Assembly: GCF_018882365.1 (NCBI RefSeq)
Contig: NZ_JACVOP010000001.1
Span: 1,096,449 to 1,160,448, forward strand
Reading direction: 5' to 3'
Length of the DNA stretch: 64,000 nucleotides
Source of the DNA: Polynucleobacter sp. 71A-WALBACH
Lineage (GTDB): Bacteria > Pseudomonadota > Gammaproteobacteria > Burkholderiales > Burkholderiaceae
This document shows, one piece after another, positions 13,341 through 24,478 of the stretch. Made by a program: the position numbers and the translations under genes. Each line of letters opens with the position of its first letter. Position 1 is the stretch's first letter. The notes below the pieces were generated by a model that did no database searches, was not told the DNA's origin, and saw only the letters and a list, made by a program, of their open reading frames with translations.

Positions 13341-14555
13341 ATGGATGAAAAAAAACCATCCCTAATAAAGGATTTTTTAAGCGAGCCAGAGGGCTTCTCT
13401 CTAGTATTTGGCGGATTCTTATTTCACTTACTTCAGCGCGCGCATCTTGCTGGTAATACAGGACGATCACTATGCATCAGGATCCTTGTAATTACCCTTC
13501 TAGCTTGGCTCCCATTGCTCGTGCTTTCTCTTATTTCTGGTCAAGTTTTTCGGGATAGCGTTCAATTATCATTTCTAGTCGATATTGAAACGCATGTACG
13601 TTTTTTGCTCGCGCTGCCGCTATTGGTTGTCGCCGAATCGGTGGTGCATCAACGTATTCGTCCGTTGATTAGTCTTTTTTTAGAGCGAGACCTCATTCCC
13701 GAAAGTGCAAAAGGGCAATTTAGCGCTGCCATTGAATCGGCAATACGTTTGCGGAACTCAACTAGTATCGAACTTATTTTAATTTCCGCAGTCTATCTGT
13801 TTGGGATTCTTTTTCTTTGGCGAACTCAAATCGCATTAGATGTCTCTAGTTGGTATAGCGTGGAGATCAATGGCCGATCCAAACTTTCTCCAGCAGGCTG
13901 GTGGTTAGCCTTTATCAGTCTGCCCTTGTTTCAATTTCTGTTGTTGCGCTGGTATTTCCGGCTTTTTATTTGGTCCCGTTTTCTATGGCAGGTATCGAAA
14001 ATATCATTAAATCTGATACCCACTAGCCCTGACCGAGCATGTGGCCTGGGATTTTTAGCCAAGGTTAGCTATGTGTTTTCACCATTAGTGTTTGCGCAAG
14101 GTGTCCTTCTTGCTGGTGTTCTGGGCGAACGCATCTTTTTTACTGGTGTATCCCTAACCTCATTCGAGATCGAAATCATCGGTATGGTGACGCTCGTACT
14201 GCTTTCCATATTGGGCCCATTGCTCGTATTTACGCCGCAAATAATGGCTGCAAAACTGAATGGCTTAGATGAATATGGCACGCTTTCCCAAAAGTATGTG
14301 CGCGCATTCGACTTTAAGTGGTTACGTAGACGCGAGACAACTGACGAACCATTCATTGGTAGTGCTGATATTCAATCTTTGGCAGATTTAAGCAATAGCT
14401 TTGAAATCATTAAAAGTACGCGCGCGTTCCCATTTGATATCAAAAATGTCATTCAGCTGATCATCATCACGGTACTGCCTATTGCGCCATTACTTTTGAC
14501 CATGTTCTCTTTAGAGGATCTGTTATTGACAATTTTTAAGATCCTCTTTCGCTAA
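13341..14555 (+). CDS. Polytopic inner-membrane protein, unknown function
   Basis: 404 residues with about seven or eight hydrophobic segments (near 45-65, 85-105, 140-160, 190-210, 240-260, 275-300, 365-395). No enzyme motif seen. The soluble stretch from about 320, carrying SQKYVRAFDFKW and SADIQSLADLSNSFEIIKSTRAFPF, looks conserved and resembles uncharacterised membrane proteins I recall from Burkholderia and rhizobia. AGGAGG at 13321-13326 is a strong ribosome site but lies 14 bases before the ATG, longer than ideal. It is flanked by intergenic gaps on both sides and so probably has its own promoter. Confidence 0.8.
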   Translation: MDEKKPSLIKDFLSEPEGFSLVFGGFLFHLLQRAHLAGNTGRSLCIRILVITLLAWLPLLVLSLISGQVFRDSVQLSFLVDIETHVRFLLALPLLVVAESVVHQRIRPLISLFLERDLIPESAKGQFSAAIESAIRLRNSTSIELILISAVYLFGILFLWRTQIALDVSSWYSVEINGRSKLSPAGWWLAFISLPLFQFLLLRWYFRLFIWSRFLWQVSKISLNLIPTSPDRACGLGFLAKVSYVFSPLVFAQGVLLAGVLGERIFFTGVSLTSFEIEIIGMVTLVLLSILGPLLVFTPQIMAAKLNGLDEYGTLSQKYVRAFDFKWLRRRETTDEPFIGSADIQSLADLSNSFEIIKSTRAFPFDIKNVIQLIIITVLPIAPLLLTMFSLEDLLLTIFKILFR

Positions 14556-14914: not shown

Positions 14915-15895
14915 TTACCTTTCATTCTTTAGTCGTTTTGCCCCCTCAACTAGAGGATTCCATCCCACTACAAGAGTCAACATGAAACTATCCATGCGTA
15001 GCGCATTAGGTGCTGAGTCGTTAATTGTTGACTTATATCCAAGAGTTAAGGCTGTATTGTCGTTTATCGTATAGCCTAGCGTTAGGCCGACTCCAAGATT
15101 ATTAAGCCGAGTGCCCGGAACGCCATTAATAGTTGCCTGTCCACCCTGGTACCAGGCTCCATCAAGGGAGCCCCAAAAATTTTCAGTAAGATCTCGCGTT
15201 AAGTGCCCATCAAGCTGAAAGAGTGGGTCGGTCTTTAATGTTTGACCGACATAATTATTGTTATTACCAAACATCCAAACCGCTGGTAAGAGCTCAAGAG
15301 TCGTACGTTTACCTGGCACCCAAGGACCTAGTTGGAGTACGGTCGGTAATCCCACGCGTCCATAATTTCGATTTTGGCCGAGATTCAGAAGTTTGCTGGA
15401 GTTATATTCTCCAATCGGAATTGCCAGATCCGCTAGAAAACTCATTGAAACGCCAGGCTCGTATCTCAAAGCATCGGCCAGGGTATTTTGCGCACGAGGC
15501 CCTAAAAAATTAATCGTGTATTCAAGCATTGGATCCCCAAACCCATTGGCAGTCTGGGTTGCTGTACGTCCACCAGCAGTAACATCTCCAGATACTCGAC
15601 CCATCGGCAGAATCACCGCGGCTGTGGCAGCACGATCAAACATTGAGAAGGTGTGAGCATAGCCAACCATTCCCATAGTCGCATTGAAGCTTGCTCCTGG
15701 TGTAACCGTATGTGCCGGGTTGAAAGGATTGGTATTGCCACTGACTGATTGAAAAATGAGCGGCACCGCATTACTGTCAGAGAGGGAATTCCAGTAAAAA
15801 CGACCCGGAACCTGTGCTGTGGTATTTGCCGAAACCAGAGCGCCGCCAACAAATAAGATGGCCATAATAAAACGTAACCAACGATTTGATTTCAT
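14915..15895 (-). CDS. Outer-membrane channel-like protein (phenol-MetA-type transporter family)
   Basis: Predicted outer-membrane beta-barrel of the family often named 'transporter' or MetA-pathway phenol degradation protein (PF13557-like, from memory). The 326 residues start with a signal peptide (MKSNRWLRFIMAILFVGGALVSANTTAQ is the region, cleaved near AQ-VP), followed by alternating-strand sequence with GDPMLEYTINFLG and PIGEYNSSKLLNLGQNR. The last strands end before a charged tail, without the usual terminal Phe. GGAA lies before the ATG. It follows the arylsulfatase by 64 bases on the same strand and is probably its operon partner, perhaps moving substrate or product across the outer membrane (inference). 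Confidence 0.82.
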   Translation of the reverse strand: MKSNRWLRFIMAILFVGGALVSANTTAQVPGRFYWNSLSDSNAVPLIFQSVSGNTNPFNPAHTVTPGASFNATMGMVGYAHTFSMFDRAATAAVILPMGRVSGDVTAGGRTATQTANGFGDPMLEYTINFLGPRAQNTLADALRYEPGVSMSFLADLAIPIGEYNSSKLLNLGQNRNYGRVGLPTVLQLGPWVPGKRTTLELLPAVWMFGNNNNYVGQTLKTDPLFQLDGHLTRDLTENFWGSLDGAWYQGGQATINGVPGTRLNNLGVGLTLGYTINDNTALTLGYKSTINDSAPNALRMDSFMLTLVVGWNPLVEGAKRLKNER

Positions 15896-15959
15896 TTTGT
15901 ATTCCTTTTTTATGCGTGGCTTATAGGATCGGCTTTAGATATATTCCAAGGTCGAACGT

Positions 15960-17789
15960 TTAATTCTTCACACCCTCAATCAAGTTTTTTGGAGGGATAA
16001 ATTGTTTTTTGTAGATCAAGGGCGGGAATCCCGGATCAACTGGAACGCGCATAGGCATGGTGTCGTCCAGGGTTTCAAATGGAGAGCGGCTAGGGAGGAT
16101 GACATGATTTTTAAGTACAAAGTCATCCCATAAAACTAGCATCGACTTAAGTTTTTCAGGATTGTCATTAGCGAGATTTTTTCTCTCTGCCGGGTCTTTT
16201 GTAACCTCAAAGAGCTCCCATTCGCCAGTACCAAAAGGCTTGTATTGCCAACGCAATTTCCAGTCGCCTTGCCTAACAGCGCGATTCCCGAAAATTTCCC
16301 ACGCCAGATAATCTTGTTTGGAGCGTGGCGAATCCACTTTATTTGTTAGTAACGGGTTCCATGACTTACCAATCAGTGGGGGCAGAGCATGACCCTCTTT
16401 ATCCTTACTTGGATACGTTGCGCCTGCTATTTCAAGTAGCGTTGGCATGATGTCTGCCACGTGCATCAACCCATCATTAATACTGCCTTTGGGGCGTGTA
16501 ACCGGTGGCCCGCTGACGATAAGCGCATTCCTAATGCCACCCTCCGCCATCCAACCTTTGTATTGACTAAATGGTGTCATGGAAACTTGAGCCCACATTG
16601 GCCCATAAGCGACATAGGATTGTGGTCCACCCCATGCATTCGGGTGAGTCTGGGACCAATTCATTGCCGCAAATAAAAAATCTCGCGAGCCAGGCGAACC
16701 TGAGATCATTTTGAATAAATCCGATCCCTCGGCACCATTGTCACCAAATACGATAAAAATTGTATTTTCATACTCGCCGATCTGTTTTAAGTGATCAACC
16801 AGCCGACCCACGTGGAAATCTAAGTTTTCCACCATGCCAGCATAAAGCTCCATTTTCTTTCCAAGCAATGCCCGAGAGACTGGAGCTAACGTGATTGGGT
16901 CTGGAAGAAACCACATTCTTTCAGACAGCTCGGTGCCAGCAGGAGTAATTCCAAGCTCAATTTGCCGCTTTAATCTGGACTGCCTGACTGCATCCCAACC
17001 AATGTCGTATTCGCCAACGTGCCGAGATCGCCATTCTTCGGGTAAGTGGTATGGGTCATGCGGCGCCTGTTGCGAAACGTATGCAAAAAAAGGCTTTCCA
17101 TCATCATGATTGCTATCAATAAAATCAATGAGCTTATCGGTATAGGTTTTGGTGGCGTAATAGTCGGTGGGTAATTCCGTTAAATATTTTCCATCCTCTG
17201 TAAAAACACTTTTGGGTGAGGCGCCAGTGAAGTTGGTCATATCCCAATAGCTGCCAGCACCATCTAGAAGTGAAAAGTCTCGTTCAAATCCTCGGGCCGC
17301 TGGAATTTGGTTGGGCGCCTTTCCTAGGTGCCACTTACCAACCATGTAAGTATGGTATCCAGAAGTCTTAAGAATTTCAGGTAGAGTAGTGACCCGATCA
17401 TTGAGGTAGCCTTCGTAGCCTGAAATCCCTTGCTGATTCGGAGCTATCCATTCATCCATGTTGCCCAATCCACTCACGTGAGTATCAACCCCGCTCATCA
17501 GTGCTGCTCTAGTTGGCGAGGAGGTTGGGTGGGTATAGAAATTAGTAAAGCGAACTCCGTTTTTGGCAATCGCATCTAGATTTGGCGTCTTAATCTCACT
17601 ACCAAATGCGCCCATATCAGCAAACCCTAAATCATCCCCAAGGATAATGACGATGTTAGGTCGACGCGGAATATCTGAGGCAAATGACGGAATTGAAGCA
17701 AGTAAAGGCACCGTGAATACCATGGCGCTGAGGGCCGGGAGCCGCCTCTTAAAATCAAAAGAGAATTTAATTGATGAACGTGTAGTCAT
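15960..17789 (-). CDS. Exported arylsulfatase, Ser-type
   Basis: Hydrolyses sulfate esters, probably in the periplasm. A signal peptide covers about residues 1-38 (ends PSFAS). The sulfatase core has metal ligands D52-D53 (LGDDLGFADMG), the active-site motif S90-S-P-T-R94 followed by AALMSG, then VGKWHLGK, and a second metal site FGDNGAEG. Residue 90, the formylglycine position, is Ser (codon at 17520-17522), not Cys. Ser-type sulfatases are matured by the radical SAM enzyme anSME, which is encoded at 20838-22043. At 609 residues it falls in the large AtsA-like group. Substrate is unknown. Upstream is a shared divergent promoter region with the DUF2252 gene. Confidence 0.93.
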   Translation of the reverse strand: MTTRSSIKFSFDFKRRLPALSAMVFTVPLLASIPSFASDIPRRPNIVIILGDDLGFADMGAFGSEIKTPNLDAIAKNGVRFTNFYTHPTSSPTRAALMSGVDTHVSGLGNMDEWIAPNQQGISGYEGYLNDRVTTLPEILKTSGYHTYMVGKWHLGKAPNQIPAARGFERDFSLLDGAGSYWDMTNFTGASPKSVFTEDGKYLTELPTDYYATKTYTDKLIDFIDSNHDDGKPFFAYVSQQAPHDPYHLPEEWRSRHVGEYDIGWDAVRQSRLKRQIELGITPAGTELSERMWFLPDPITLAPVSRALLGKKMELYAGMVENLDFHVGRLVDHLKQIGEYENTIFIVFGDNGAEGSDLFKMISGSPGSRDFLFAAMNWSQTHPNAWGGPQSYVAYGPMWAQVSMTPFSQYKGWMAEGGIRNALIVSGPPVTRPKGSINDGLMHVADIMPTLLEIAGATYPSKDKEGHALPPLIGKSWNPLLTNKVDSPRSKQDYLAWEIFGNRAVRQGDWKLRWQYKPFGTGEWELFEVTKDPAERKNLANDNPEKLKSMLVLWDDFVLKNHVILPSRSPFETLDDTMPMRVPVDPGFPPLIYKKQFIPPKNLIEGVKN

Positions 17790-18125
17790 TGATTGTGGTT
17801 CGCCTTCACACAGACGGTAAACTTATTAGCCCTCAAATATCCGCGTATTACTAAATAGAGATCACCCTGCGGCGATCTAAATATGCTGACCACATAACAA
17901 AAGTAAAAATTACACTGCCCATTGCAATTACTTTGTAAAAGAAGGCCGTTGAAATATTTTGATTAATGTCAAAAAATTCATTCTAAAAAATTTTAGTATT
18001 CACACGTGGGGATCAGATATGCGCATGGAATTAAAGAGTTACCAACCTAAATTAAATTTTCTTATGCGGTGAACTCTCTATTTGATAAAAAGCCAATCTA
18101 AGTATTAATTTTTATGGGGTTTCTG
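17790..18125. promoter_or_regulatory. Divergent promoter region of the sulfatase locus
   Basis: 336 AT-rich bases between the divergent arylsulfatase and DUF2252 genes; promoters for both must lie here. A short inverted repeat GATCACCCTGCGGCGATC lies near 17862-17879. No recognised operator was identified and no ORF is convincing. Confidence 0.5.
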
Positions 18126-19547
18126 ATGTCTAAAACTATAAAGCAGACTAAAACAAAAAATTCCACCTCGTCTGAAACTCCCTACTTGTCCGTTGACGAA
18201 CGCTCTGCAAAAGGTCGCGCCTTGCGTGATGTAGCTCCACGTTCATCGCACGCAGGATGGATACCGGCTAAAAATCGCCGTGACCCAGTGGATTTATTAA
18301 TTGAATCCAATGCCGGTCGCTTGGAAAATTTGGTGCCTATTCGATTCGGCCGAATGTCCGAGTCACCCTTTGCTTTTTATCGCGGATCTGCCGTGCTGAT
18401 GGCTGCTGATCTTGCTAACACTCCCACTAGTGGATTGCGTGTTCAGGCCTGCGGAGATGCGCATTTGATGAACTTTGGTGGCTTTGCTACCCCAGAGCGA
18501 AACATCATCTTTGATATTAATGATCTTGACGAGACTTTGCCCGCCCCATTTGAATGGGACCTCAAACGGCTTGCCGCCAGCGTAATCATCGCGGCAAAAC
18601 ACTTGGATTTCCCTATGAGCAATGCAGCGCGGCTTGTCACCGATCTGGTTCAGGAATATCGTGAACGCATGACTGACTATGCAGGCATGCGCGCCTTGGA
18701 TGTCTGGTACGACAAAATTGATCTACAAAAGTATTCTGATCGAATGGGTGATCCTGAAATAATTAAAGAGCTTAAAAATCGGCTTAAATTAAGAATAGAA
18801 AAAGAACAGCGTAGAACTGCACCTGATTTTTTATACCCCAAACTGGTTACTCACCAAGGCTCAAGGCCTATGATTAAGGACGAGCCGCCCCTGATTTTCC
18901 ATCCAACTGCGGAACAGGCTCCCGGCCTTTTAGACGGGTACTCTAAGGCAATCAAGGAATACCGCGAGAGCTTACCAGATCACATGCGAACACTATTTGA
19001 TCGATTCCACTACTTTGATCTGGCGGAGAAGGTTGTCGGGGTTGGCAGTGTTGGTACAAGATGCGCAGTCATGTTATTGATGGCTGCCGACAATGATTCC
19101 TTGTTCTTGCAGATAAAAGAGGCACGCACCTCGGTGCTTGAACCTTATGCAGGAAAAAGCCTATATAAAAATAATGGTCAGAGAGTCATTGTCGGACAAC
19201 GGCTGATGCAGGCTGCGACTGATGTCTTTTTAGGCTGGACAAGTGGCATTAGCGGACACCATTTTTATGTCCGCCAACTTCGCGATATCAAAATGTCGGC
19301 GATTATTGATGACTGGGATCCGGCGATGATGCGACAGTATGGGCGGATGTGCGCGCACGCCTTAGCCCGTGCTCATGCGCGTACTGGGGATGCCGCCTTG
19401 ATTTCCGGCTATATGGGTACTAGTCGAAGTTTTGATGATGCCATTGGAGAGTTTGCCGTCGAGTATGCCGCTCAGAATCAAGCTGACTATCGAACATTTA
19501 TCAAAGCGATTCGAGAGGGAAAAATTAATGCGGTAATTGGAAGTTAG
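18126..19547 (+). CDS. DUF2252 family protein
   Basis: Belongs to the uncharacterised DUF2252 (COG4320) family, which shows distant likeness to aminoglycoside-phosphotransferase-type kinases. Supporting motifs are RFGRMSESPFAFYRGSA, CGDAHLMNFGGFATPERN, FDINDLDETLPAPFEWDLKRL, and a C-terminal GRMCAHALARAHARTGD. There is no signal peptide, so it is cytoplasmic. The length of 473 is usual. ATG 18126 is preferred over 18114 because GGGG sits six bases before it. It starts the rightward unit opposite the arylsulfatase, 75 bases ahead of a second channel-like gene. Its link to sulfate-ester use is only by position. Confidence 0.88.
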   Translation: MSKTIKQTKTKNSTSSETPYLSVDERSAKGRALRDVAPRSSHAGWIPAKNRRDPVDLLIESNAGRLENLVPIRFGRMSESPFAFYRGSAVLMAADLANTPTSGLRVQACGDAHLMNFGGFATPERNIIFDINDLDETLPAPFEWDLKRLAASVIIAAKHLDFPMSNAARLVTDLVQEYRERMTDYAGMRALDVWYDKIDLQKYSDRMGDPEIIKELKNRLKLRIEKEQRRTAPDFLYPKLVTHQGSRPMIKDEPPLIFHPTAEQAPGLLDGYSKAIKEYRESLPDHMRTLFDRFHYFDLAEKVVGVGSVGTRCAVMLLMAADNDSLFLQIKEARTSVLEPYAGKSLYKNNGQRVIVGQRLMQAATDVFLGWTSGISGHHFYVRQLRDIKMSAIIDDWDPAMMRQYGRMCAHALARAHARTGDAALISGYMGTSRSFDDAIGEFAVEYAAQNQADYRTFIKAIREGKINAVIGS

Positions 19548-19622
19548 CTCATATTGTTTGAGGGGATTCTGATTTCATCACATCTTCAATTGGTTAAGCG
19601 TTAATTTGAAAGCTCAATTCAC

Positions 19623-20552
19623 ATGCGTAGACACTGTTGGCGGTTTGCGTTATGGACCTTTACTTTCGCTTGCATCATTGTCATGTCGTTATCAATAGCG
19701 CAAGCGCAAAACTTGGAGCCACGATCCTATGCCAATACGCCAATTGGACTTAATTTTCTAATTGCTGGTTATGCTTATACAGAAGGTAAAGTAGCATTCA
19801 ATCCAACTCTACCGATTGCCAATGCGCAGTTTCACAGCAATACTGAAGTTCTTGCATATGTGCGCTCAATCGATGCTTTTGGGAACTCAGCCAAGTTTGA
19901 TGTCATATTGCCGTACTCTGCATTTTATGGAGATGCGTTGGCTAATGGGCAACCTGTACAACGTCAAATGTCCGGCATTGGGGATCCTAAATTTCGCTTT
20001 TCGATGAACTTTTATGGCGCTCCCGCTTTATCGCTGAAAGATTTCAGAGGATACAGCCAGGATCTCATCATTGGTGCCAGCATGCAGATTAGTGCGCCGC
20101 TAGGGCAATACGACAATAGCAAGCTCATTAATCTTGGCTATAACCGCTGGTCCTTTAGGCCTGAACTCGGGATTTCCAAAGCCATCGGTTCATGGACTCT
20201 GGAATTTATGCCTAGCGTCACTTTTTATACGGTCAATTCAGATTTTAATTACGGGCAAAGTCTGTCTCAAGCCCCCCAATACGAAGCACAGGCACATATC
20301 ATTTACAGTTTCGTCTCTGGGGTTTGGCTGGCGCTTAATGGCGACTACTTTGTAGGCAATCGGACCACTCTGAACGGCGTCTTAAATAATAATCTTCAGT
20401 CCAATACTAGGGCAGGCATAACCCTTGCTTTACCAGTAGATCGTCATAACTCAGTCAAACTCTATGCTAGTACAGGCACAGCATCTCTAACTGGATCTAA
20501 CTTTAATGCCATTGGCATCGCTTGGCAGTATCGCTGGGGCGATGGTTACTAA
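19623..20552 (+). CDS. Outer-membrane channel-like protein, second copy
   Basis: Same family as the product of 14915-15895, sharing the pattern PLGQYDNSKLINLGYNR and GDPKFRFSMNFYG. A signal peptide covers residues 1 to about 29 (ends SIAQAQ). The remaining 280 residues alternate polar and hydrophobic residues as in a beta-barrel, and the C-terminus is aromatic (WQYRWGDGY), fitting outer-membrane insertion. It follows the DUF2252 gene at 75 bases. Having one family member on each arm of the divergent locus suggests two channels with related cargo or a duplication. Confidence 0.83.
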   Translation: MRRHCWRFALWTFTFACIIVMSLSIAQAQNLEPRSYANTPIGLNFLIAGYAYTEGKVAFNPTLPIANAQFHSNTEVLAYVRSIDAFGNSAKFDVILPYSAFYGDALANGQPVQRQMSGIGDPKFRFSMNFYGAPALSLKDFRGYSQDLIIGASMQISAPLGQYDNSKLINLGYNRWSFRPELGISKAIGSWTLEFMPSVTFYTVNSDFNYGQSLSQAPQYEAQAHIIYSFVSGVWLALNGDYFVGNRTTLNGVLNNNLQSNTRAGITLALPVDRHNSVKLYASTGTASLTGSNFNAIGIAWQYRWGDGY

Positions 20553-20837
20553 GATGAGTCTTTTACTAACCCAAATTCTATATCCGCTATTGCCGAGAAT
20601 GAGGGGTTCAATCAAGAGTAATGCTAAACCAAGTAATTCTCACTGGCTCGGTCAATTGAGGGGAGGCGCCTTGCAAAGTAACGCCACATATACTGTTATT
20701 TCTAGCAAATCGCTGCTGATTGAGTGTGTCGATGATCAGAGGCTTGGCACAGGCAGCGCAAAAGGAGGCGATTTTGAAGAAAACATTGGCAGACTGAGTG
20801 TCGTTTCCTTATCTCCATTTTATTTTCTTTGTTTGCT

Positions 20838-22043
20838 ATGACTACTCAACCAACACTTCAGCTTCCAAAATTGATCAATGGTGATTTCTATCGTTTTCAT
20901 ACGATGGTTAAGCCCAGCGGCGCACACTGCAATCTTGATTGCGCTTACTGTTTTTATCTTCATAAAGAAGATTTGCTGCATCAGCCGCAGGTACCACGAA
21001 TGAGTAATAGCTTGTTAGAGGCTCATATTCGTCAATACATCGAGGCGCAAGGTGGCGACGAGGTAATTTTTACTTGGCAGGGTGGTGAGCCAACGCTGAT
21101 GGGGATTGATTTTTTTAAACGCATCGTAGCGCTTCAGAAGCAGTACAAGAAAACAGGCCAGCGTATTGAGAATGATCTTCAGACCAATGGTATCTTGCTT
21201 AATGATGAGTGGTGTGCTTTCCTTGCCGAGCATCAATTTCTAGTTGGCTTGTCGATTGATGGGCCTGCTGAACTGCATGATCTTTATCGCTATAGCAAAG
21301 GCGGCAAACCAACCTTTACACGAGTGATGGCGGCAGTCGAGTTATTACACAAGCACCGTGTGGTATTTAGCGCTCTGTGCGTTGTGAATCGTAGTAATTC
21401 GCGTCGACCAATCGATGTCTATCGTTTCCTGCGTGATGAGGTAAGACCGTATATCATTCAATTTATTCCCGGATTAGAGCCATCTGATTTTCATTTTGTT
21501 GCACCGGGTCACTGGGATTGGTCAAATCTACCAAGTGTTACTGACTGGTCGGTACTGCCGGATGACTGGGGATATTTTTTGACGCGAGTATGGGATGAAT
21601 GGTTCAAGCATGATTACGGACATGTGTTTGTCGACCAGTTTGAGAACATCATCTCATTAATGTTCGGTCATGGTCCACAGAAATGTGTCAGTGGACGCAT
21701 TTGTGGCAAGGCACTGGCGATCGAACACAACGGTGATGTCTATAGCTGTGATCACTTCGTTTATCCAGGGTACAAATTAGGCAATATCCTCGAAGTACAT
21801 GAAGGCGATCTGGCATTTTCCGACCAGCAGAAAAAATTTGCTTACGCTAAGAGTGATAGCCTGCCTACCTACTGCAAATCCTGCACCTATTTAGAGCTGT
21901 GCTGGGGCGAGTGTCCAAAAAACCGTTTTACCAAAACACCAGAGGGTGAGTCAGGCCTGAATTATCTTTGCTCGGGACTTAAAAAGTTTTATGCGAAGGC
22001 AAGCTCTGATCGTCGCGAACTGGCTAAACGGCTGGGGCGATAA
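20838..22043 (+). CDS. Anaerobic sulfatase-maturating enzyme (radical SAM)
   Basis: Converts the active-site Ser or Cys of sulfatases to C-alpha-formylglycine in the cytoplasm without oxygen as oxidant. The radical SAM cluster is C31-x3-C35-x2-C38 (CNLDCAYC). It is followed by WQGGEPTLMG and LQTNGILLND, and the C-terminal SPASM region with extra cysteines (CVSGRICGKALAIEHNGD is the start; CKSC..CWGECPKNRF..CSG follow). This pattern is diagnostic for anSME. The frame opens with TTG at 20829; I chose ATG 20838. No clear ribosome site precedes either, though AAAGGAGG at 20761-20768 lies further up. Its likely client is the Ser-type sulfatase 3 kb away. Confidence 0.93.
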   Translation: MTTQPTLQLPKLINGDFYRFHTMVKPSGAHCNLDCAYCFYLHKEDLLHQPQVPRMSNSLLEAHIRQYIEAQGGDEVIFTWQGGEPTLMGIDFFKRIVALQKQYKKTGQRIENDLQTNGILLNDEWCAFLAEHQFLVGLSIDGPAELHDLYRYSKGGKPTFTRVMAAVELLHKHRVVFSALCVVNRSNSRRPIDVYRFLRDEVRPYIIQFIPGLEPSDFHFVAPGHWDWSNLPSVTDWSVLPDDWGYFLTRVWDEWFKHDYGHVFVDQFENIISLMFGHGPQKCVSGRICGKALAIEHNGDVYSCDHFVYPGYKLGNILEVHEGDLAFSDQQKKFAYAKSDSLPTYCKSCTYLELCWGECPKNRFTKTPEGESGLNYLCSGLKKFYAKASSDRRELAKRLGR

Positions 22044-22443
22044 ATGGTCTGTTCTACCGCTATCAAGGTAAACACCTTCCCCGTTGGTAGCTGGTACTGC
22101 TATAAGAATCCTTCTTTTTCAATAGTTAGGTTTTTTAGTCAAAATAATTATCTAATTTTTAAGCTTTCAAGCTTGTCATTGTGACCCTTACATTCGGCTA
22201 TCAATTTTTATTTCCTTATTTAATTTTGATATTTCTCAATTATTAAAAAATCATGGCTTTTATAAAGGGAGCATTAGGTGTGGTGTTTACTTTGATTTGT
22301 AGTGGGCTTAATTGAAGAATGCTCATTCAACGAAATACCTTTGCATGGCTTTTGTATAGTAATTAAGTCCAAGAGCTTGTGTCGGTGTATTTATTGAAAT
22401 GGCAAGTTGGTTAATTTGGGAAATGGAAACAGAAATCAGCTCT
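22044..22443. other. 400-base gap ending the sulfatase segment
   Basis: AT-rich, with no convincing gene. It contains the right copy of the direct repeat (22221-22245) and a 20-codon hydrophobic ATG frame just after it (about 22253-22315, MAFIKGALGVVFTLICSGLN) that lacks support. The promoter for the sixA-like gene presumably lies in its last 150 bases. Confidence 0.5.
22221..22245 (+). repeat. Right copy of 25-bp direct repeat
   Basis: Matches 12258-12282 at 24 of 25 positions in direct orientation, about 10 kb apart. Flanking bases differ. See the left copy for the two readings (recombination footprint or shared promoter sequence). Confidence 0.6.
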
Positions 22444-22923
22444 ATGCCTAAATCTTTATATCTTCTCAGACATGCAAAAGCTATTGCAGGAGGGATTTTG
22501 GGTTCTGATCAGGATAGATCTTTATCCAAAAGGGGTGTTAGGGATGCAATTAAGTTAGCCCATAAATTGGCTAAAAAAGAGTTACTTTTGGACCTTATTT
22601 TAATGAGTCCTTCAGTTCGCACAATTAGCACTGGTCAGATTATTTCAAGTGAACTGCACATCCCCCATTCTCATTTAGTTGTTAATGAGAATCTCTATGC
22701 GGCAGAACCCATGGATTTGCTTAAAGTTATTTCCCATGTTTCCAATAAAATTGATAGGCTTATGATTGTTGGACATAATCCTGGGCTAATGAATTTAGCC
22801 TCGCTGCTCGCGGGTAAGTCACTATCCATGACTACATGCTCCCTAATTAAGCTCTCTTTTGACTTTGAAGATTGGCATGCCATCTTTACGGAAAGAGCCT
22901 CAAAATTTAACTTTCTGAACTAG
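22444..22923 (+). CDS. SixA-like histidine phosphatase
   Basis: Small histidine phosphatase of the SixA group, which removes phosphate from phosphohistidine, classically on HPt domains. The catalytic motif is LRHAKA near the N-terminus (RHA where many family members have RHG). SPSVRTISTGQII supplies the second Arg, and IVGHNPGL the second His. The 159 residues are close to E. coli SixA. The frame is open from 22399; I chose the ATG just before the first strand (PKSLYLLRHAK) by homology, as no start has a good ribosome site. It lies 25 bases before the CYTH-CHAD gene, probably one operon. Confidence 0.85.
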   Translation: MPKSLYLLRHAKAIAGGILGSDQDRSLSKRGVRDAIKLAHKLAKKELLLDLILMSPSVRTISTGQIISSELHIPHSHLVVNENLYAAEPMDLLKVISHVSNKIDRLMIVGHNPGLMNLASLLAGKSLSMTTCSLIKLSFDFEDWHAIFTERASKFNFLN

Positions 22924-22948
22924 CTTGTGATATCACTCATTAGAAATA

Positions 22949-24478
22949 ATGCCTGCAAACGGTAGTGAATTTGAAATCAAGCTACGCTTTCCGTTCGGTA
23001 GGCTTGAGTCAATTGAAAAATGGATCATTGCTCGGGGCGGGCTTCGCCGCCAGCATTTACAGTCTGCATACATAGACACGCCAGATTTTTTACTGACTCA
23101 GGCGGGCTTTGCTTTTCGTTTACGGAAGGAGGGGCGCCAGTGGATCCAAACGCTCAAAGTTTCCACGGATAATCCCTTGAAAAGGCTTGAGCACAATGTT
23201 GTATTGGATTTTACTGGGGATGCCATGCCCAATTGGTGCCTTGATCTCCATGATCAACACAACCCTGGAAAGTTATTAACAAAACGGTTTCCAAAATTAA
23301 AAACTGATGATCTGCAAATTCGCTACCAAACTGATATTTGGCGAAGAAAAACAGCAGTAAAGACGCGCCAGGGAATGCTTGAATATGCCTTGGACTTAGG
23401 GTCAATCCACTCCTTATTACCCAATGGGATGGCCTCAATCCCAATTCAGGAGTTAGAAATAGAGTTAAAGGAGGGCGACCCTCGAGATGTTCTTCATCAT
23501 GCACTTAATCTGATTAAGATCCACGGGGCTTACATCGATTCCCGTAGTAAATCTGAACGCGGTTTTTTGCTGGCTAGCGGATTGGAGTTCGGCCCCCCAG
23601 CAAGGGCCAATTTCATTTCACTGAAGAAGGCGGGGGATCGCCATGAAATGATTGGTCGTCTCATCCACTCTTCTCTGCAGCAAATATTGGCCAATCAAAG
23701 CGTGCTTAATGCTGAGTGTAATAATTACTCTGAATATCTTCATCAACTGAGGGTGGGTCTGCGTCGCCTAAAGGTCCTATTTAAATATTTGGCGAGGTAT
23801 GATATTTTCATGAGTGAGCAAGGGGTTGGGGTATTTAAAAGTACGTTTAGTATGCTTGGTGAGTATCGCGACAATGATTACATTGAAATTGTTTTAAACC
23901 CAAGACTGTTATCGCTCGGCAGTTCAGAGATTAAGCTCAGTAATAATGCAGAATTGCCAGACCCTTCACACATAACGAGGGGCAAAGAGTTTCAGTTGCT
24001 CTTGGTAGAGCTCATGTCTATTGGGCTTACTCAAGCCTCCTTTATTGGTGGTCCCACAGATGATGCGAATGTTAAAGATGACGCAGCAATTCTTAAAAAA
24101 ATAGTTTCCCAATTTCTTGATGACGGATTTCGTTTTATATCGAATCGAGCCTTTAAATTCTCAGACTTGCAGGACGAAGAGATTCATTCGATGCGGAAAA
24201 AAATGAAGTTTTTACGCTATTCCCTAGAATTTTTTAGAGACTATTGCATTAAGAAAACATGCCCCAAGTTTTTTAAGGCCCTTACAACCACGCTGGATTT
24301 TTTTGGATTATTTAATGATATTTGCGTCGCCATTAATCGAATTGAGGGGCTAGCGCAGAATGATCCTACCTTGTTATTTGCTCTTGGTTGGCTTAAAGCT
24401 GAGCGTCAACGCGTCCGCGGTTTATGTGGAAAAAGCATAAAAAAGCTCATTCAAATAAAAACTCCTTGGCAGAGCTAG
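22949..24478 (+). CDS. CYTH and CHAD domain protein
   Basis: Two-domain protein linked to polyphosphate. The N-terminal CYTH triphosphate-tunnel domain (about residues 5-205) begins with EFEIKL, the charged signature strand, and has basic residues for the phosphate tunnel (FAFRLRKEG). The C-terminal CHAD domain (about 230-505) is helical and histidine/arginine rich, with HQLRVGLRRLK and MRKKMKFLRY. CHAD domains are known to bind polyphosphate. Length is usual for the fusion. Coupling to a SixA-type phosphatase recurs in bacteria and suggests a phosphate-signalling or polyphosphate role (inference). Confidence 0.9.
   Translation: MPANGSEFEIKLRFPFGRLESIEKWIIARGGLRRQHLQSAYIDTPDFLLTQAGFAFRLRKEGRQWIQTLKVSTDNPLKRLEHNVVLDFTGDAMPNWCLDLHDQHNPGKLLTKRFPKLKTDDLQIRYQTDIWRRKTAVKTRQGMLEYALDLGSIHSLLPNGMASIPIQELEIELKEGDPRDVLHHALNLIKIHGAYIDSRSKSERGFLLASGLEFGPPARANFISLKKAGDRHEMIGRLIHSSLQQILANQSVLNAECNNYSEYLHQLRVGLRRLKVLFKYLARYDIFMSEQGVGVFKSTFSMLGEYRDNDYIEIVLNPRLLSLGSSEIKLSNNAELPDPSHITRGKEFQLLLVELMSIGLTQASFIGGPTDDANVKDDAAILKKIVSQFLDDGFRFISNRAFKFSDLQDEEIHSMRKKMKFLRYSLEFFRDYCIKKTCPKFFKALTTTLDFFGLFNDICVAINRIEGLAQNDPTLLFALGWLKAERQRVRGLCGKSIKKLIQIKTPWQS

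Follow-up and report, generated by a model that had tools for sequence, protein, structure and literature searches.

An exported Ser-type arylsulfatase with a linked anSME in Polynucleobacter, and its relatives in a clade where cysteine looks to have been replaced by serine repeatedly

The locus described here lies in a 64,000-nucleotide stretch of the 2.33-Mb genome of Polynucleobacter sp. 71A-WALBACH (the window, by which we mean that whole stretch) and has two divergent arms. The minus-strand arm encodes a 609-residue arylsulfatase resembling that of Pseudomonas aeruginosa, PAS (15960..17789), and barrel A (14915..15895), a proposed outer-membrane channel and the core partner of the sulfatase. 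The plus-strand arm encodes a DUF2252 protein (18114..19547; PF10009, E = 3e-144), a second channel-like protein, barrel B (19623..20552), and an anSME, a radical SAM/SPASM sulfatase maturase (20829..22043), whose start lies 3.0 kb from that of the sulfatase and is likelier to be the ATG at 20838 than the TTG at 20829. By gene coordinates, an intergenic stretch (17790..18113) in which both promoters are predicted separates the arms. Both barrels scored above the cut-off for PF13557, the family criterion for an outer-membrane channel (E = 4e-20 for A and 4e-17 for B), and aligned with each other at 30% identity over 235 residues (E = 2e-30). The preliminary description, which had placed two related channel-like barrels one on each arm and included a DUF2252 protein, was right on both points.

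A 404-residue membrane protein encoded at 13341..14555 on the plus strand, without a match in Pfam or NCBIfam, may be an additional member of the locus; relatives (45% and 47% identical) occur near two other loci with a Ser-type sulfatase and an anSME (L095 and L110), whereas a search of the other 80 loci gave none nearby, among the matches listed. On the 3' side of the anSME, the window encodes a SixA-like phosphatase followed by a CYTH-CHAD protein (22399-24478); no match to this pair near a sulfatase was found in the flanks of the compared loci, among the matches listed.

The sulfatase matched PF00884 (E = 3e-57), and its best solved relative was the P. aeruginosa arylsulfatase 1hdh (E = 5e-129, residues 42-571). 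Ser90 (codon TCC, 17520..17522, minus strand) aligned with the formylglycine cysteine, in the motif SSPTR, in agreement with the initial reading of serine at this position. The PF00884 fold and a (C/S)-x-(P/A)-x-R motif, which together mark a type I formylglycine sulfatase, are thus both present. All nine of the other catalytic positions checked were retained (Asp52, Asp53, Arg94, Lys152, His154, His244, Asp350, Asn351, and Lys411), which we take to be metal- or sulfate-binding positions of PAS. PAS is a cytosolic, Cys-type enzyme. The window sulfatase belongs to the same sequence family and has the catalytic residues in common but differs in having serine and an export-type N-terminus, visible in the sequence as a hydrophobic segment. 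Ser90 is the residue expected to become formylglycine; among the matches listed, relatives from 31 genomes have cysteine in its place. Other PF00884 matches in the genome were L002, L003, L004, and L005, of which L002 and L003, on another contig, are Cys-type sulfatases without an export signal.

The maturase scored 474 bits against TIGR03942 (curated cut-off 349) and contains a CX3CX2C motif (Cys34, Cys38, Cys41) as well as eight C-terminal cysteines (Cys286, 292, 307, 349, 352, 358, 362, and 381) that align with those of 4k37, corresponding to the two auxiliary clusters of a SPASM domain. These results bear out the earlier claim of an anSME with a full set of SPASM cysteines about 3 kb from the sulfatase. 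No second anSME in the genome exceeded the cut-off, the next match falling far below it, and neither a canonical FGE (protein search, E up to 1e-20) nor an octahaem-TPR cytochrome of the kind discussed below (E up to 1e-40) was found there. The atsA/atsB pair of Klebsiella, a Ser-type arylsulfatase and a radical SAM maturase, is a known counterpart. That system likewise combines serine at the formylglycine position, an exported sulfatase, and a nearby maturase gene. Unlike it, the window sulfatase is PAS-like, with close orthologues that are mostly Cys-type, and its locus is a divergent, two-armed one with PF13557 barrels and a DUF2252 protein.

Close relatives of the window sulfatase were sought in three sets of genomes. 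In 151 genomes of the genus, a sample of a larger group that includes the source genome itself, no other match exceeded 37% identity over most of the protein. Two relatives stood out in 399 genomes of the order (77% and 74% identity), both Cys-type and both with a barrel A orthologue adjoining the sulfatase gene. A scan of the genome_contigs collection gave at least 80 loci, at least 37 of them close relatives (67-79% identity over the best stretch), for a total with the two from the order of at least 39 loci; residue 90 was readable in 38, and L150, in which it is not covered, was left out of all residue counts. Many of these records are MAGs labeled anywhere from Betaproteobacteria to Acidobacteria and Bacteroidetes, and some may be misbinned.

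Among the matches listed, 34 of the 35 relatives with a continuing contig have a barrel A orthologue downstream of the sulfatase gene (the exception being L121). By the same measure, DUF2252 was present in the flanks of only 3 of 39 relatives, with a fragment in a fourth, and barrel B orthologues (51-54% identical) occurred near just two relatives, both Cys-type and one of them about 10 kb away. The conserved core is therefore the sulfatase and barrel A, and DUF2252 and barrel B are accessory. A conserved set of five genes, one candidate that we considered, was rejected on account of the rarity of DUF2252 and barrel B near relatives, among the matches listed. The check for conservation across genomes that the preliminary description had proposed thus went against the full set, also with respect to the anSME, which was found within the flanks of 0 of 31 Cys-type loci among the matches listed. 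Parts of the self-contained system envisaged there are supported, namely the pairing of a Ser-type sulfatase with an anSME of its own and a working core of sulfatase and barrel; the five-gene set is not.

Across 39 genomes, including that of the window, residue 90 was cysteine in 31 and serine in 8, among the matches listed. We constructed a tree of 43 sulfatases (the window sulfatase, 35 relatives, and 7 outgroup sequences, with L122, L132, L149, and L150 left out) from an alignment lacking the residue-90 column. All seven outgroup sequences were Cys-type. The best tree implied at least seven state changes for the eight Ser-type sequences, a count that belongs to that tree, as the interior of the clade is poorly resolved (17 of 40 branches open); well supported branches alone gave three independent Ser/Cys pairs, too few for independent-pairs tests to reach significance. 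The window and L095 sulfatases are sisters (support 100/99), and L111 and L112 nest with Cys-type sequences on well supported branches. The serine codons are TCN in five cases and AGY in three, and even the sisters differ, with TCC in the window and AGT in L095. Judged from these sequences, the Ser state looks derived and appears to have arisen repeatedly in the clade, although the number of times is uncertain.

The residue at position 90 goes with the maturase. First, genome-wide searches (TIGR03942, E up to 1e-40) found an anSME in 8/8 Ser-type and 9/31 Cys-type genomes (p = 4e-4, among the matches listed), which is consistent with the earlier statement that Ser-type enzymes need anSME; in one of the nine Cys-type genomes (G562), the anSME consists only of two pieces that fall under the cut-off. 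Second, within flanks of up to 10 kb, an anSME was linked to the sulfatase at 6/8 Ser-type and 0/31 Cys-type loci (p = 9e-6, among the matches listed). The flanks are uneven in length, and for loci whose flanks each extend for 3 kb or more the corresponding fractions were 5/5 and 0/16, again among the matches listed. The Ser-type loci L108 and L112 lie on short contigs without an anSME, and both genomes have one elsewhere. Third, a single clade for the six linked anSMEs was rejected (AU test, p = 1.7e-5): one lineage comprises those of the window, L095, and L110 and, with less certainty, that of L102, and another comprises those of L104 and L111. With two or more lineages among the linked anSMEs, and with residue state tracking linkage, the residue and the linked maturase change together.

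Other observations show that the association is not absolute. For two Cys-type loci (L109 and L125), the contig carries an anSME at a greater distance, about 11 and 14 kb away, and at L109 this distant anSME is flanked on both sides by Ser-type sulfatases of another subfamily. At L095 there is a second anSME that adjoins a Cys-type paralogue, and several anSMEs on other contigs of Cys-type genomes also adjoin Cys-type sulfatases; the neighbors of an anSME are thus not always Ser-type. A second sulfatase-barrel-anSME set (L235) occurs in genome G559, with a sulfatase that matches only from residue 343 onward.

We consider it likely that the exported PAS-like sulfatase and its dedicated barrel serve to cut a sulfate ester and that cysteine gave way to serine several times among these relatives, always where the genome has an anSME and usually with that anSME beside the sulfatase. 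Barrel A would take up a small sulfate ester, probably an aromatic one or one that is hydrophobic in some other way, across the outer membrane, and the sulfatase would cut it and release sulfate. Before export, the anSME of the locus, on which the window sulfatase would depend, would oxidize Ser90 in the cytoplasm. In PMC3920027, anSMEs are described as taking both cysteine and serine and FGE as working on cysteine. The likely order of events would begin with arrival of an anSME that accepts both residues, after which serine at position 90 would become tolerable; the Ser form would then be locked to the anSME because FGE acts on cysteine only.

A different history, in which a single old cassette of Ser-type sulfatase and anSME spread horizontally and serine arose only once or twice, would fit several observations: the window, L095, and L110 have anSMEs of a single clade, the 404-residue membrane protein accompanies these same three loci, and no other close match to the sulfatase was found in the 151 genus genomes searched. 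We nevertheless regard it as unlikely, as L111 and L112 nest among Cys-type sequences on well supported branches, the anSMEs of L104 and L111 belong to another lineage, and the two kinds of serine codon are not joined by any single base change. The formylglycine hydrolase superfamily is promiscuous, and the enzyme could in principle be a phosphonate or phosphate-diester hydrolase and not a sulfatase in the cell; this seems quite improbable given that its best sequence match is the P. aeruginosa arylsulfatase and that all ten positions checked are kept, except for the change of cysteine to serine. Least probable is that the anSME mainly serves other sulfatases of the genome and lies near the Ser-type gene incidentally, for although the two Cys-type sulfatases without an export signal on another contig may need the anSME too, the genome having yielded no canonical FGE, it is Ser-type and not Cys-type orthologues to which anSMEs are linked across genomes, among the matches listed.

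Other maturases were sought in the genomes of the Cys-type members. A protein search of 40 genomes with an FGE from G555 as query (E up to 1e-20) found a canonical FGE in only two, and these are Cys-type genomes. We relied on this search because a scan of the loci for the strict FGE cysteine motif was too narrow, the FGEs of the genus reading YCQSYR; PF03781, tried as a marker of FGE, was too broad, matching 35 of the 40 genomes. Among the matches listed, neither FGE nor anSME was found in 20 of the 31 Cys-type genomes.

Several Cys-type loci carry a gene for a large exported cytochrome of one family, an octahaem c-type protein with a HEAT/TPR tail (L071:5797-8121 and members at L100, L103, L109, L120, L125, L133, L139, L140, L145, L159, and L160). 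Among 61 rows whose open frame reaches 400 amino acids or more, two of which repeat others, 59 have eight CXXCH motifs, the two exceptions being broken copies; HEAT and TPR repeats follow the motifs in this family. The family thus has conserved redox centers and a protein-binding domain, as a candidate maturase should. Apart from generic TPR-type domains, no whole-protein NCBIfam model scored over its cut-off for the query and two relatives, among the models listed. In an AlphaFold model, the HEAT/TPR part was confident and the haem part was not (mean pLDDT 68).

Cytochrome homologues (E up to 1e-40) were found in 26/31 Cys-type and 0/8 Ser-type genomes (p = 2e-5) and, at 40% identity or more, in 18/31 and 0/8, respectively (p = 0.004), in both cases among the matches listed. 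With the same limit, 17 of the 20 Cys-type genomes in which neither FGE nor anSME was found had the cytochrome, as did all nine Cys-type genomes with an anSME, so that cytochrome and anSME are not mutually exclusive within a genome. Of the five Cys-type genomes lacking the cytochrome, two are the FGE genomes, and those of L113, L123, and L130 show none of the three proteins. A different neighbor of Cys-type sulfatases, an MBL-fold hydrolase (L071:13413-14393, L097, L098, L099, L106, and L149), is 88-90% identical to the L071 protein in the other five loci, has SoxH-related models as its nearest matches, under their cut-offs, and often lies near an AraC-type regulator. As a Cys-specific partner it was dropped (8/31 Cys-type vs 0/8 Ser-type, p = 0.17, among the matches listed).

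Beyond the clade, the cytochrome was present in 19 of 399 genomes of the order. Among the 38 order genomes that encode a PAS-like sulfatase (E up to 1e-60), 7 had the cytochrome, against 12 of the 361 others (p = 9e-4, or p = 0.013 once the two clade genomes are removed), a comparison that assumes that both searches used the same draw of 399 genomes, as the handles suggest. We took one cytochrome region per genome, choosing in G395 the copy that is not near the clade sulfatase; a sulfatase is present in 12 of these 19 regions, in every case Cys-type and on the same strand as the cytochrome and from several subfamilies, most with a hydrophobic N-terminus (a raw count of nearness). In the Cys-type genomes of the clade, where several contigs are short, 7 of 20 cytochrome regions hold a sulfatase, always Cys-type, two being the clade's own locus and four of the seven lying on the strand opposite the cytochrome (also a raw count). 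An 18-kb stretch (L225) has a Cys-type sulfatase beside the cytochrome and, about 11 kb on, an anSME between two Ser-type sulfatases.

On plasmids, cytochrome matches were found in 146 records. Eleven plasmid regions were hand-picked to be diverse, and in 10 of them a Cys-type sulfatase lies near the cytochrome, namely in Rhizobium (three), Sinorhizobium (two), Methylocystis, Methylosinus, Pseudoalteromonas, Alisedimentitalea, and Vibrio (with a broken cytochrome); in the Qingshengfaniella region, no sulfatase was found near it. The cytochrome and sulfatase genes of Methylosinus trichosporium OB3b overlap by 4 bases. Sinorhizobium meliloti 1021 carries the cytochrome on pSymA, next to a sulfatase with the motif CTPGR, and PMC6189696 reports a putative FGE in S. 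meliloti. In open-licence PMC papers, we found no mention of a link between sulfatases and multihaem cytochromes.

Other sulfatase clusters of the genus are organized in a similar way around a different maturase. We chose eight stretches around sulfatases of other genus genomes, and six of them (L310-L314 and L316) have an exported Cys-type sulfatase near a membrane-anchored FGE in which both catalytic cysteines are present, in the motif YCQSYR. A barrel lies between sulfatase and FGE in five of the six, and matched PF13557 in L310 and L313; L316, the third cluster covered by the Pfam scan, has sulfatase and FGE without a recognized barrel. Like the window locus, L310-L314 place an exported sulfatase, a PF13557 barrel, and a maturase side by side. 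Unlike it, they have a Cys-type sulfatase of another subfamily, a membrane-anchored FGE as maturase, and a barrel that gave no significant match to A or B in BLAST. In the at least 80 genome_contigs loci, seven have an FGE and eleven the cytochrome, always with a Cys-type matched sulfatase, and five have an anSME, always with a Ser-type one, among the matches listed. None of the 80 loci in the matches listed shows two of the three proteins, which is our reason for treating the cytochrome as a candidate maturase rather than a component of a substrate pathway.

We therefore raise, tentatively and with the balance of our own judgment against it, the possibility that the octahaem cytochrome with its HEAT/TPR tail provides a third route to formylglycine, independent of FGE and SAM, and that the maturase slot of these loci is interchangeable among FGE, anSME, and cytochrome, the window slot having changed to anSME as cysteine changed to serine. 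By this putative route, the periplasmic cytochrome would take two electrons from the cysteine of the exported sulfatase, giving a thioaldehyde that would hydrolyze to formylglycine, and its TPR part would hold the substrate protein.

Multihaem cytochromes usually carry electrons in respiration. The cytochrome may accordingly be linked to sulfatases in some other way, through electron transfer in breakdown of the desulfated product or through the shared ecology of multihaem-rich organisms, and on this we are evenly divided. Its maturase activity is putative; no sulfatase is near in 7 of 19 order regions and 13 of 20 regions of Cys-type clade genomes; four of the seven sulfatases in the latter regions are on the other strand; and all nine Cys-type genomes with an anSME also have the cytochrome, among the matches listed. 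Against such a role, orthologous sulfatases with the same barrel lack the cytochrome exactly where serine and anSME enter (0/8 vs 26/31, among the matches listed), and a Ser-type genome labeled Geobacter (G559) is without it. Moreover, the neighboring sulfatases span several subfamilies, so that no single product explains the linkage.

A candidate maturase bears on an older question. As cited in PMC6189696 and PMC6315715, a third sulfatase maturation system was reported for E. coli (Benjdia 2007), and the search for the missing maturase dates from that report. The situation here is like that of E. coli in that Cys-type sulfatases occur in genomes that yielded neither an FGE nor an anSME; what differs is that a candidate agent, the cytochrome, is proposed here. 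Most Cys-type members of the clade (20/31, among the matches listed) are in genomes where no known maturase was found, and one protein family has now been singled out. If the proposed third route were true, the cytochrome would also give a new means of aldehyde-tagging exported proteins.

Ser-type sulfatases with an anSME were known before. What is new is a clade whose orthologues look to have gone from cysteine to serine repeatedly, with a linked maturase, and which thereby offers a natural experiment on how an enzyme becomes bound to its activator.
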